A stretch of 64,000 bases of DNA from Laspinema palackyanum D2c (GTDB taxonomy: Bacteria; Cyanobacteriota; Cyanobacteriia; Cyanobacteriales; Laspinemataceae): contig NZ_JAMXFD010000005.1 in assembly GCF_025370875.1 (NCBI RefSeq), positions 1 through 64,000 on the forward strand, read 5' to 3'. A program made the position numbers and the translations under genes. Shown here piece by piece: positions 59,116-64,000 of the stretch; the first letter of the stretch is position 1; each line of letters begins with the position of its first letter. Below the pieces are notes generated by a model. That model saw only the letters and a program-made list of their open reading frames with translations. It did no database searches and had not been told where the DNA came from.

Positions 59116-60090
59116 ATGTGTTATGACAACCTGCTAAAATATTGGGCAGAAAAATATGCCCAACAGATGGCATCCTGGGCCTTCAGACAATCCATTACCA
59201 CCCCGGTTGAAGTCTTAAAAACTGAACTTTCCGTCGAACCAATTCGGGCGGATTCAGTTATTTTCCTAAAAAGCGGCCCAGAAATTCAGCATTTAGAATT
59301 TCAGACCAGGGTTCCGCAAGATAGGCAAATGCCGATCCGGATGTGCAGCTATTCCATTCGGTTACAGTGGCAATATGAACTGCCCGTGAGGCAAGTCTTG
59401 ATTTGGCTGCTTCCTACCAGTAACCCGGCGGTATTCGAGACCGAATTTCGGACCGAATTCACCCACCACCGATATCAGGTAATTCGGTTATGGGAAGAAT
59501 CCCCAGAAGCGTTACTAGAGAATAATGTCTTACTGCCCCTGGCGGTGTTATGCGCCACAGAGAACCCCACGGAACTCTTGAATCAAGTAGCTCAAGAAGT
59601 GGATAAAATAGAAGAGACAGACCTGCGACAGGAAGTTGCCGCCTGCACTCAGATTTTAGCGGGGTTGCGGTTTGACAAACAGTTAATATCCACCATGTTC
59701 AGGGAGGAAGTTATGCGAGAATCCGTAGTTTATCAAGACATTCTGCAAAAGGGTATCGCCCAAGGATTAGAGCAGGGATTAGCCCAAGGATTAAAGCAGG
59801 GATTGACCCAAGGATTAGAGCAGGGATTAGAGCAGGGATTAGCCCAGGGATTAGAGCAGGGATTGACCCAGGGATTGACCAAGGGATTGACCCAGGGATT
59901 AGCCCAAGGTGAAAAACAGGGTGAAGTGGCGGTAATTTTGCGCCTGCTTCATCGCTTTTGTGGGGACCTAAACCTGGAGATTAAGTCCCAAATTAAGGGA
60001 CTGAATAAGCCGCAATTGGAGGAGTTGAGTGAAGCCTTATTAGACTTTACCAACTTGGCGGATTTACAGCAGTGGCTGGAGTCTCATTAA
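59116..60090 (+). CDS. Rpn-family PD-(D/E)XK nuclease with QGL repeat
   Basis: 324 residues from the ATG at 59116 (an upstream frame to 59029 lacks family similarity). The nuclease half has the PD-(D/E)XK-type core: IRADSVIFL (Asp), IQHLEFQTR (Glu-x-Gln), and helix MPIRMCSYSIRLQW. The C-terminal half contains about 14 tandem QGL-x units (e.g. GLEQGLAQGLKQG), encoded by a 12-base DNA repeat, then EVAVILRLLHRFCG and a helical end. Family members are recombination-promoting nucleases with anti-phage roles. An AGGGAGG plus ATG inside the gene (59701-59715) can start a shorter C-terminal product. Divergent from the 57472 gene. Confidence 0.87.
   Translation: MCYDNLLKYWAEKYAQQMASWAFRQSITTPVEVLKTELSVEPIRADSVIFLKSGPEIQHLEFQTRVPQDRQMPIRMCSYSIRLQWQYELPVRQVLIWLLPTSNPAVFETEFRTEFTHHRYQVIRLWEESPEALLENNVLLPLAVLCATENPTELLNQVAQEVDKIEETDLRQEVAACTQILAGLRFDKQLISTMFREEVMRESVVYQDILQKGIAQGLEQGLAQGLKQGLTQGLEQGLEQGLAQGLEQGLTQGLTKGLTQGLAQGEKQGEVAVILRLLHRFCGDLNLEIKSQIKGLNKPQLEELSEALLDFTNLADLQQWLESH
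59713..60090 (+). CDS. Possible internal-start C-terminal product of the Rpn gene
   Basis: In frame with the full gene. ATG at 59713 is preceded by AGGGAGGAAGTT, a near-perfect ribosome-binding site. The product would be MRESVVYQDILQKGIAQGLE and onward, 125 residues, lacking the nuclease core. In E. coli Rpn genes such in-gene small products bind and inhibit the nuclease. Predicted from sequence only. Confidence 0.45.
   Translation: MRESVVYQDILQKGIAQGLEQGLAQGLKQGLTQGLEQGLEQGLAQGLEQGLTQGLTKGLTQGLAQGEKQGEVAVILRLLHRFCGDLNLEIKSQIKGLNKPQLEELSEALLDFTNLADLQQWLESH
59756..59930 (+). repeat. Tandem 12-base repeat coding QGLx
   Basis: Units of the form CAGGGATTAGCC / CAGGGATTAGAG / CAGGGATTGACC repeat about 14 times in phase with the Rpn reading frame. 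Unit-number changes keep the frame, so length can vary by slippage. Confidence 0.85.
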
Positions 60091-60161
60091 ATTTGATTGG
60101 GGGCCATTTTGATTGGCCCCAATTCTAACCCGACCCTTTGCCCCTTTTCAGGGAGGACGTT

Positions 60162-60407
60162 ATGCGAGAATCTGTAATCTATCAAGATATTCTGCAAAAG
60201 GGTATCGCCCAGGGATTCGCCCAGGGGGAAAAACAGGGTGAAGTGGCGGTAATTTTGCGCCTGCTTCATCGCTTTTGTGGGCCGATTAATTTGGAGATTG
60301 AGTCTCGAATTCAGTCTTTGAGTAAGCCGCAATTGGAAGAGTTGAGTAAAGCGTTCTTAGACTTTACCAACTTGGCAGATTTACAGCAGTGGCTGGATTC
60401 TCATTAA
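60162..60407 (+). CDS. Stand-alone duplicate of the Rpn C-terminal module
   Basis: 81 residues from the ATG at 60162, with AGGGAGG six bases before it. It reads MRESVIYQDILQKGIAQGFA, then GEKQGEVAVILRLLHRFCG, then KPQLEELSKAFLDFTNLADL and ends QQWLDSH, matching the last part of the neighbouring Rpn protein but with only two QG units. The duplication starts exactly at the internal ribosome-binding site of the parent gene, not at a random point. It could be a degenerate tail copy, or a free antitoxin-like inhibitor; the open frame and good start favour function. Confidence 0.65.
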   Translation: MRESVIYQDILQKGIAQGFAQGEKQGEVAVILRLLHRFCGPINLEIESRIQSLSKPQLEELSKAFLDFTNLADLQQWLDSH

Positions 60408-60441
60408 ATTTGATTGGGGCCATTTAAAAATTGCCCCAACC

Positions 60442-60573
60442 CTATATAGCGGTTCCCGGACTCATAAGGTACAGACATTTAGAGGAGTGCGAGCATCTTG
60501 CTCGCTATTGACAATAGCGAGCAAGATGCTCGCACTCCCAAGATGTACCTCATAACGGTGGGAAACCCTATAG
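60442..60573. mobile_element. MITE-like element, complete copy
   Basis: About 132 bases with imperfect terminal inverted repeats: CTATATAGCGGTTCCCGG at the left, and on the other strand CTATAGGGTTTCCCACCG at the right, each followed by ATAAGGTACA or ATGAGGTACA. The centre is a long hairpin GCGAGCATCTTGCTCGCTAT / ATAGCGAGCAAGATGCTCGC. No coding capacity. A truncated relative lies at 57336 and a core-only relative at 19988. Confidence 0.8.
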
Positions 60574-60928: not shown

Positions 60929-63900
60929 CTACGCACCGATCGCACAGAACCCCGCCCAATAATAAGGCGAAGCAAACGGTTTAGCCGTTCCCTCCATCTT
61001 ACTAAAACGCCGCCGGAACTGCCCTCGATAAGTGGAACGTAACATTAGCTGACTAGACCACACCTGCAACCCCTCCACCGTCACATCCCGCAGCCAGATT
61101 TGAGCCTGTTTCAAAGCCAGGGGAACCGTTTCACCATTTTTGACATTTTGGTAAAAGCGAATCATCAGCAAAGCCGTAGACAGGTCATTCACCGCCCACA
61201 GAGAACAGACGACATTCGGAGCACCGGCCAAAATAAACCCACTGGGTAACCCGATATATTCATCACTGGTGGAGTTAAAGTCAGTAATCCCAGTTTCGCA
61301 GGCAGAAAGGGTGACGAGACGACAGTTGCTCAGGTCAAGACGCAAGATATCCTCTATTGTGAGGCACTTGCCCAAGTCGAGGAGATTGCCATTTTGTAGG
61401 GGAATATAGCGGCTTTGGTCCTCATTCGGTGGCGGTGGAGTAAATTCGCTTTTAGCTAAGAGGAGGGCAGATTTCAGGGCATCTTCAAAATTGAAATAGC
61501 CGTGACAGGAGAAGTGAGTGCAGTGAGCATTTTTCAAGTTATCCCCATCGAGAATCGCTGCTTTTTCCGCTGCGTCATATTGGAGGATATGGTGCGGATT
61601 GAAGAGGGATTGAATCGCTGCCACTTCGATATCAGTAAAATCCAAGTCTTGGGTCGGGTTTTGGATAGCAAAGAGTTGGTTAAAATCGGGACGTTGCCGA
61701 TTTTGCGCTTGTTGCAACACCTGACAGTTAGGCGCGTAGGCGACACCTTTGGGAAATAATTCCTGTAGGGGCGCAATGCGCAGGCCCTCTTGATTACCAT
61801 TCTGGCGAGAAATCGGGCGCAAGCATTGCACCCCTACCCCATCTGTGCCAATAACAGGGACAGGTAAAGCGTGTAGAGGGAACAGGTGCAAAAAGCGGTG
61901 AGGGATGAGGATGAGTTTTTTACAGTTGGGGAATTTTTCCCGCAGGTTGTGCAGGATTTCATCCAGGTGGAGGATTTGGGCGAGTTGTTCTAGGCGTTGG
62001 GGGAGGTTATTGTGCCATTGGGTTTTGTTGTTGCGGTAGTCGTTGAGGTAGGCGTTTGTCCAGTCGATGAGGTGAATCAAATCTTGGGGTGAAGACTGCC
62101 AGAGACTAATCTCAGAGTCTGGTTCACTCGGTTGATTTGCTAAGTTAGGGAGAATTGTAAAAGTCAAAAATTTATAGGATTCAAAAGAGACATACCACTC
62201 TATAATGGCTGTTTCTTCGTTGAGGAGATTTTTAATATCTTCAAAGGTCAGGGGTTGATAGGGGGAATGACGATTAAATTCTTCCCGGAGTTGATTAAGG
62301 TAGTTAGAATCCGGCTGAGAGGTTTGTTGTAGCCGTTCCTTTTCCTTGGCAATATCTTGCCGGATTTGTTGTAGCCGTAACCGAGTGGATTCCGGTATGT
62401 CTGATCCATATAAGTCACGGGCTGCAATGAGTTCAGATAGGTTACGGGCTTTGCTGCGATCGGCGTATTCCAGGGCTTTATCATAGCGGTTTAATTGAAT
62501 ACAAGATTCAACCATGAGTACATACGGTTTAATCCATTCTTCATTAAATTTACGTTTTGCTTCGTCCCCAGAGATAACTTCTCCGCGCAAATATTCCACT
62601 GTATCAATTGCTTCGGCAAAAGCCTTGTATGCCAAGTGATAATTTTTGCTGTTCAAATAAACAATCCCTAGGTTTGATAAAACTACTGAGTGTTTTTGAG
62701 GGAAAGCCAATCGAGTAAAAACTTGCAATGATTGTTGATAAAGGTTAATAACTTTTTCACTGTCATTTAGGTGTATATAAACATTGGCAAGACAGCGGAT
62801 ACTTTCAGCCCATCTCTCTGGATAAGATTCGAGCCTAAATACTTCTAGGCTTCGTTCATAGTAAAATCTTGCTTCTTGTAAACAATCGGGAAGATTTTTA
62901 CGTTTAAATAAATGAATATAAATATCTCCAAGAATAAGATTTACATTGCCCCAGGATATGGGGTTAACTGTGAGATTTTCTTGGACAGTTAAACTTGCTT
63001 TACCAGCTAAGATTGCTTTATTCAAATTATCATCTTCATTTCCTAAGACGCGCACTTTATATGCCTCAGCAAAGTTATGTTGTACAATGGCATATTCTAA
63101 GGGATGATTTTCCTGATCAAAAACTTCTAATGCTGATTCAATAGCAGCAATAGCTTTTTCTATATTTTCTGCATTTTCTTTTTCTCTAAACCAATTTTTG
63201 ACAGACAAGTAAAGAGAAGAAAAGTTTAAATTGCACTTAGCCCATTGCTCGGGAAAATCATGCTTATTGTAGACACTTAGAGCTGCTTGATATGCAGCAA
63301 GTGATTTTTTGTAATTGTCAAATCCATCACCTTTTGGTCGGTGGCCATAAGCTACTCCAAGACTTAATTGTACTTCTGCCCATTGTTTTGGAAATTTCTC
63401 TTTCGTATAAACAGTTAAAGCAAGCTGATTATAGGAAATAGCTTTTTCGATATCCTCACCTATGGTATCGATATTATCTGCCTTGCCGACTAGAATTATA
63501 CTGGTATTAGTATAAATTATTCCTAATGAACTTTGGATATCAGCCCATCGTTGCGGGTTATTTTCTGGGGAATACACAGTTAAAGCTGCTTCATAAGCAA
63601 TGATTGCTTGTTCTCGGTATTTTAAGTTACGGGGGTCGCTATAATAGTAATACTCACCTATAAAAAATTGAATTTCAGCCCATTGCTCAGGAACTTTTTC
63701 TAGGGTACGAATTTCCAAGGCCCCTTGATAGCAGCGAATAGCTTCACTTAAAAAACGTTGATCTTGATTCGTTACTATTTGGTCAGTATAGACAAGGCCT
63801 AAGAGCAATTTTATTTCTGCCCACTCTTCAGGGAAAGCTTCACGAGGGCGAAGTTTTAAAGACGCTTTATGGTAATCAATAGCTTTCCCTAAATTTTCGC

Positions 63901-64000
63901 TTTTATCCCCTTTGATTCGATTTACATAACTCCTCGCCAAATTCATTTGCAAGCTAACACACTGGTTTACCCAATAATTATAGTCGTGAGATTCTGAATC
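60929..64000 (-). CDS. TPR-CHAT protease (5' end outside the window)
   Basis: At least 1023 residues; the frame is open to the window edge, so the start is missing. The N-terminal 500 residues are many TPR-like repeats of about 45-50 residues, with phrases such as WAEIQFFIGEYYY, AIIAYEAALTVYSPENNPQR and QRWADIQSSLGIIY. After a helical linker comes the caspase-like CHAT domain with the His of CTHFSCHGYFNF and the Cys of LVTLSACETGITDF. It should be a cysteine protease whose TPR array senses a partner. Cyanobacteria use many of these; targets are mostly unknown. Confidence 0.9.
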   Translation of the reverse strand, partial: DSESHDYNYWVNQCVSLQMNLARSYVNRIKGDKSENLGKAIDYHKASLKLRPREAFPEEWAEIKLLLGLVYTDQIVTNQDQRFLSEAIRCYQGALEIRTLEKVPEQWAEIQFFIGEYYYYSDPRNLKYREQAIIAYEAALTVYSPENNPQRWADIQSSLGIIYTNTSIILVGKADNIDTIGEDIEKAISYNQLALTVYTKEKFPKQWAEVQLSLGVAYGHRPKGDGFDNYKKSLAAYQAALSVYNKHDFPEQWAKCNLNFSSLYLSVKNWFREKENAENIEKAIAAIESALEVFDQENHPLEYAIVQHNFAEAYKVRVLGNEDDNLNKAILAGKASLTVQENLTVNPISWGNVNLILGDIYIHLFKRKNLPDCLQEARFYYERSLEVFRLESYPERWAESIRCLANVYIHLNDSEKVINLYQQSLQVFTRLAFPQKHSVVLSNLGIVYLNSKNYHLAYKAFAEAIDTVEYLRGEVISGDEAKRKFNEEWIKPYVLMVESCIQLNRYDKALEYADRSKARNLSELIAARDLYGSDIPESTRLRLQQIRQDIAKEKERLQQTSQPDSNYLNQLREEFNRHSPYQPLTFEDIKNLLNEETAIIEWYVSFESYKFLTFTILPNLANQPSEPDSEISLWQSSPQDLIHLIDWTNAYLNDYRNNKTQWHNNLPQRLEQLAQILHLDEILHNLREKFPNCKKLILIPHRFLHLFPLHALPVPVIGTDGVGVQCLRPISRQNGNQEGLRIAPLQELFPKGVAYAPNCQVLQQAQNRQRPDFNQLFAIQNPTQDLDFTDIEVAAIQSLFNPHHILQYDAAEKAAILDGDNLKNAHCTHFSCHGYFNFEDALKSALLLAKSEFTPPPPNEDQSRYIPLQNGNLLDLGKCLTIEDILRLDLSNCRLVTLSACETGITDFNSTSDEYIGLPSGFILAGAPNVVCSLWAVNDLSTALLMIRFYQNVKNGETVPLALKQAQIWLRDVTVEGLQVWSSQLMLRSTYRGQFRRRFSKMEGTAKPFASPYYWAGFCAIGA

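Follow-up and report, generated by a model that had tools for sequence, protein, structure and literature searches.

Organization of the rpn locus

The window, a 64,000-nt stretch of the genome of Laspinema palackyanum D2c (contig NZ_JAMXFD010000005.1, positions 1 to 64,000), contains an Rpn-type gene, here called the parent, followed on the same strand by a short stand-alone gene, here called the tail, that repeats the parent's C-terminal region (Table 1). A sequence-only reading of this DNA had pointed to a ribosome-binding site and start codon in frame within the parent, and to a separate downstream unit beginning with the same two elements and encoding the same C-terminal module. Both were confirmed, and the downstream unit encodes a protein with a DUF4351 domain (E = 3.7e-21, above the curated cut-off). 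The most conspicuous difference between the two lies in their tandem arrays, with approximately 12 units of 12 bp in the parent and one in the tail, a gap of 11 units (44 aa).

Table 1. Features of the rpn locus, with coordinates in the window.
Feature	Coordinates	Strand	Remarks
Rpn-type gene (RpnL-like), 324 aa	59116..60090	+	N-terminal PD-(D/E)XK-like domain, 12-bp/4-aa repeat array, C-terminal DUF4351
AGGGAGG-N5-ATG, presumed internal translation start of an RpnS-like product	59701..59715	+	AGGGAGG at 59701-59707, ATG at 59713-59715; in frame with the ORF ending at 60090; kept in orthologues
Predicted intragenic small product, 125 aa	59713..60090	+	Repeat helix and DUF4351; predicted from sequence only
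Tandem array of GLxQ units, 12 bp each, about 12 copies	59760..59906	+	Within the parent gene
GC-rich hairpin past the parental stop	60098..60121	+	Separates the parent from the copy; -16.2 kcal/mol, poor T-tract
AGGGAGG-N5-ATG, start site of the stand-alone copy	60150..60164	+	AGGGAGG at 60150-60156, ATG at 60162-60164
Stand-alone rpnS-like gene, 81 aa	60162..60407	+	DUF4351; one GxxQ unit in the array
Hairpin past the copy	60410..60440	+	-13.5 kcal/mol; co-duplicated with the gene

A scan for sigma-70 promoters, which performed no better than on shuffled sequence, did not find one for the tail on the + strand. Directly past the tail lies a perfect 27-bp inverted repeat with a 1-nt spacer (GGAGTGCGAGCATCTTGCTCGCTATTG, 60484-60538) that resembles a dispersed cyanobacterial palindrome. 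The rpn locus is adjoined by a gene on the - strand (60929-63952) for a protein of approximately 1000 aa, which, judging by its translation alone, would combine TPR-like repeats with a caspase-like CHAT end (HFSCHGYF ... LSACETG).

The nuclease gene and its internal start

DUF4351 (PF14261) was detected in the parent protein with an E-value of 4.5e-20, above the curated cut-off, and was the only domain recovered in the Pfam search. Against NCBIfam, the parent scored 17.6 bits to the Rpn family model TIGR01784, compared to a cut-off of 52.1, while 12 of 16 aligned related parents matched this model (counting matches up to E 0.01; best E 5.4e-11). The NCBIfam search also returned matches to FliH, which lay far below the cut-off and were rejected as a product of the Gln-rich repeats. 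Residues D46, E61, and Q63 do not vary across the 16 parents, and they occur in the same D-(x)n-ExQ order as the catalytic residues D63, E82, and Q84 of RpnA (PMC5350276). The parents therefore appear to carry the D...ExQ PD-(D/E)XK core that characterizes the Rpn (COG5464/TIGR01784) nucleases, and the long product would be a DNA nuclease of the RpnL type. Structure prediction is consistent with this assignment. The AlphaFold model of the long protein has an intermediate quality (pLDDT 71), and the top structural neighbors of its N-terminal domain are PD-(D/E)XK nucleases, the best being EndoMS (Z 6.3, 3.4 A, 96 residues); with Z below 8, these matches make the fold a weak assignment from structure rather than a stand-alone proof. 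The tail was modeled as entirely helical (pLDDT 74). Foldseek searches of the PDB with the long-gene and tail models gave no match at E <= 0.001, the PDB sequence search gave no relevant match, and RpnAS (PDB 7TH0) was absent among the PDB matches from either approach for parent and tail.

We looked for a strong Shine-Dalgarno sequence with ATG or GTG in the stretch 9-80 residues before the C-terminal module of 88 parental genes, using segments of equal length farther upstream in the same genes as controls. Such a start is present in 66 of the 88 genes and in none of the 88 control segments, which rules out a random origin. As many of these genes are related, the corresponding p-value (3e-29) overstates their independence, and we read the count as strong conservation of the putative internal start rather than as 88 independent trials. 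Codon choice points in the same direction: the GGGAGG of the ribosome-binding site is formed by an arginine xGG codon and a glutamate GAG codon that are fixed in 15 of 15 window-type genes, where codon usage predicts 13% and where glutamate is encoded by GAG in only 27% of cases elsewhere. In both the parent and the tail, the four-residue array starts approximately 17 residues past the methionine, within the 8-20 residues after the internal Met that are expected of RpnS. In its sequence, then, the locus has the in-frame ribosome-binding site and start ahead of the module that are typical of RpnS (DUF4351, PF14261). Initiation at 59713 would yield a small cognate antitoxin, RpnS, that pairs with RpnL via the repeat-bearing helix.

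Duplication and conservation of the tail

Identity between the two copies is 87% across 85 nt at their start (59693-59777 and 60142-60226) and 84% across 247 nt at their end (59881-60127 and 60198-60444). Because identity extends to both ends, the copied segment must span the ribosome-binding site and the post-stop hairpin; the duplicated DNA reaches from approximately 8 nt upstream of the former to beyond the latter. We propose that a tandem duplication of this segment took place in an ancestral member of the genus, and that the duplicate has since been retained as a separate rpnS-type gene. Of the earlier proposal that an intragenic antitoxin had been copied out, this much stands: there is a copy with its own ribosome-binding site, and it has been kept as a gene. 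The benefit that was claimed for the copying is not supported (see below).

Loci of the window type were present in seven genomes of the genus (Laspinema and relatives); the relatives include Laspinema sp. D2d, L. olomoucense, Oscillatoria sp. HE19RPO, and Phormidium pseudopriestleyi. The sequence-only reading would have been undermined by a tail full of stops in related strains, which is not what we found. Among the six genomes with readable downstream DNA, five have an intact tail (G000, the window's own, together with G001, G004, G005, and G006) and G002 lacks it; in the seventh genome, G003, the position of the tail falls beyond the contig end, and it was left out of the count. Comparisons between tails gave dN/dS values mostly of 0.09-0.33 (57 core codons), with one very young pair at 0.8 based on four changes. 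Together with the intact frames, these values led us to reject the possibility that the tail is a pseudogene in the window group, and they indicate that the window-type tail evolves mostly under purifying selection. In the tree, the tails of G000 and G001 cluster with a support of 99 and their parents with 88, and a leader (DPLP-F or DPLL-F) that is absent from the parents is common to the tails from five genomes. These groupings indicate that the duplication predates the split of the two species.

The parent and tail of G004 cluster together at 65, as would be expected from gene conversion. This grouping, along with the approximately 250 nt that parent and copy share at 84% identity, would fit a tail that serves as a silent cassette, with recombination between it and the parent exchanging array lengths and thereby altering toxin-antitoxin specificity. 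We regard this as highly improbable, as a cassette needs neither a start of its own nor purifying selection on its protein, both of which are present, and a conversion event was never directly observed.

Distribution of parent-plus-tail loci

The sequence-only reading had suggested searching for the same arrangement beside other cyanobacterial Rpn genes, and it turned out to be frequent. Three parent-plus-tail loci (C5, C25, and C8) occur in the window's genome and approximately 20 in the genus, and the layout is also seen in further cyanobacteria outside the genus. Because the loci within the genus belong to several unrelated Rpn subgroups, the arrangement must have arisen repeatedly. The intragenic and copied-out antitoxin arrangement is thus common and recurrent in cyanobacteria rather than an oddity of E. 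coli. Other cyanobacterial Rpn/DUF4351 genes resemble those of the window in domain order, internal start, and, where they occur, adjacent tails, but most have no tail and some are instead arranged as tandem full copies. Several variants were also seen. In one locus (L143/L124, G016:C25), three stand-alone tails follow a single parental rpn gene in tandem; they are equal to one another, and each exceeds the parent by one repeat unit. Many short DUF4351 frames (L144-L182) lack a full-length parent within 1.6 kb and are either orphan RpnS-like genes or remnants. Another Rpn/DUF4351 gene in the window's genome (L008 1088-1918, G000:C9) is divided by an in-frame stop into frames of 92 aa and 183 aa.

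The tail could also have arisen incidentally through tandem duplication and now be in the process of being lost, with arrays that drift and nothing relying on the copy. The frequent tandem changes at rpn loci, the frameshift in one E. coli tail, and the missing tail of G002 are in line with this view. We nevertheless consider it distinctly unlikely, given the intact frames in five genomes, the conserved start and ribosome-binding site, an omega well under 1 for most comparisons between tails, and the retention of many independent copies.

Repeat numbers of parents and tails

In E. coli, RpnS blocks RpnL only when both have an equal number of four-residue repeats (Zhong et al. 2023, PMC10327210, Fig. 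4D), a rule that was measured for just one change, in a single E. coli protein, and that may fail for large arrays or for the cyanobacterial subfamily. The 125-aa intragenic product always agrees in length with its own nuclease, and by this rule it would be the working antitoxin, while the 81-aa product, 11 units apart, is predicted not to inhibit the neighboring nuclease. The rule also conflicts with the benefit proposed in the sequence-only reading, namely that copying frees the antitoxin from length changes in the parent, since, once the lengths change, a copy that is no longer coupled would be prone to losing its activity on the neighbor.

Equal lengths of parent and tail are rare in general: they were found in one of 25 adjacent cyanobacterial pairs with a core at least 80% identical, in none of 10 E. 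coli rpnE haplotypes (e.g., 0/1, 5/1, 3/1, 4/0, 8/4, and 1/4), and in one of seven rpnC haplotypes. If a repeat match is needed for inhibition, most stand-alone antitoxins would leave the neighboring nuclease unblocked. At 90% identity or more, parent and tail were equal in 0/15 comparisons, as opposed to 23/54 parent-parent and tail-tail comparisons (Fisher p 0.001, with comparisons that are non-independent). Permuting tails within groups gave an expectation of 1.9 matches and a probability of 0.107 of seeing none, so the shortage of equal lengths is suggestive and non-significant relative to random pairing (P about 0.11). When loci were collapsed by hand, 1/17 parent-tail pairs were equal, compared to 5/12 for other adjacent copies (p 0.056). 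Adjacent full-length rpn copies are also often unequal in repeat number, as seen in tandem full-length copies with a core at least 90% identical (L252, L257, L265, and L276). Given the non-independence of the comparisons and these probabilities, we limit our claim to parent and tail lengths being uncoupled; active avoidance of a length match is possible but unproven. It is quite unlikely, in our estimation, that stand-alone RpnS proteins are selected against matching the length of the neighbor and are kept as non-cognate, length-insulated antitoxins, with repeat number as a specificity code among co-resident copies. Such copies might counter, for instance, other Rpn alleles or phage-triggered variants.

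In line with the sequence-only reading, the tail could be a working antitoxin of the neighboring nuclease. It would add to the dose and bind despite the length gap, e.g., via the DUF4351 bundle. Tails do stay beside their parents, under purifying selection, and E. coli K-12 makes both RpnES and YpaA (PMC10327210). We consider this possibility unlikely on the whole, because the equal-repeat rule stands against lengths that are almost never equal. The reading that we favor, and that we hold to be reasonably probable, is that the locus is an rpn toxin-antitoxin system of the E. coli kind in which selection has kept the stand-alone copy as a relative of the antitoxin. After the duplication, the 12-bp arrays of parent and copy would have changed length independently to reach 12 units and one unit, and the 81-aa protein would be an antitoxin-type subunit whose binding to its neighbor is most likely weak or absent. 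Its possible roles are action on Rpn products of other lengths, for example older or incoming alleles, and low-affinity buffering. Resolving the conflict with the length rule would reveal the purpose of the stand-alone copies as well as the reason for repeat variation.

Comparison with known systems

The sequence-only reading had taken the arrangement to be undescribed, but Zhong et al. (2023, PMC10327210) described the same one in E. coli, where RpnS is made inside rpn genes or from a separate gene annotated as DUF4351. In that study, rpnE is followed by ypaA/rpnES and rpnC by rpnCS, the two downstream genes are of independent origin, and recombination induced by RpnL was discussed as a possible source of separate rpnS genes. 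Our inspection of the K-12 rpnE-ypaA sequence revealed the same anatomy as in the window, with a duplicated AGGAGAGATTAATG start. Stand-alone copies associated with rpnE (L183-L195) are called by NCBI as pseudogenes that are "partial, missing N-terminus", but most of them are small, intact frames preceded by a ribosome-binding site of their own, and we regard their recording as partial pseudogenes as an annotation problem.

A further parallel is provided by Cas10d/Cas11d (cited in PMC10327210), in which two proteins arise from one frame by internal initiation, as predicted for the window. Unlike the situation in the window, the small product is a subunit of a complex rather than an inhibitor, and there is no copied-out gene. 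The rpnE-ypaA and rpnC-rpnCS loci are closer, as each combines a nuclease gene containing an in-frame RpnS start with a downstream tandem RpnS copy. In rpnE-ypaA the copy keeps the ribosome-binding site of the parent, and at both E. coli loci the first helix contains variable four-residue repeats whose number is usually unequal in parent and copy (0 versus 1 in K-12). The window differs from E. coli in its cyanobacterial DUF4351 subfamily and diverged nuclease domain, in its far larger length gap (11 units), and in the several independent duplications within one genus. The parent-plus-tail arrangement is already known from E. coli, and the window locus adds a cyanobacterial case.
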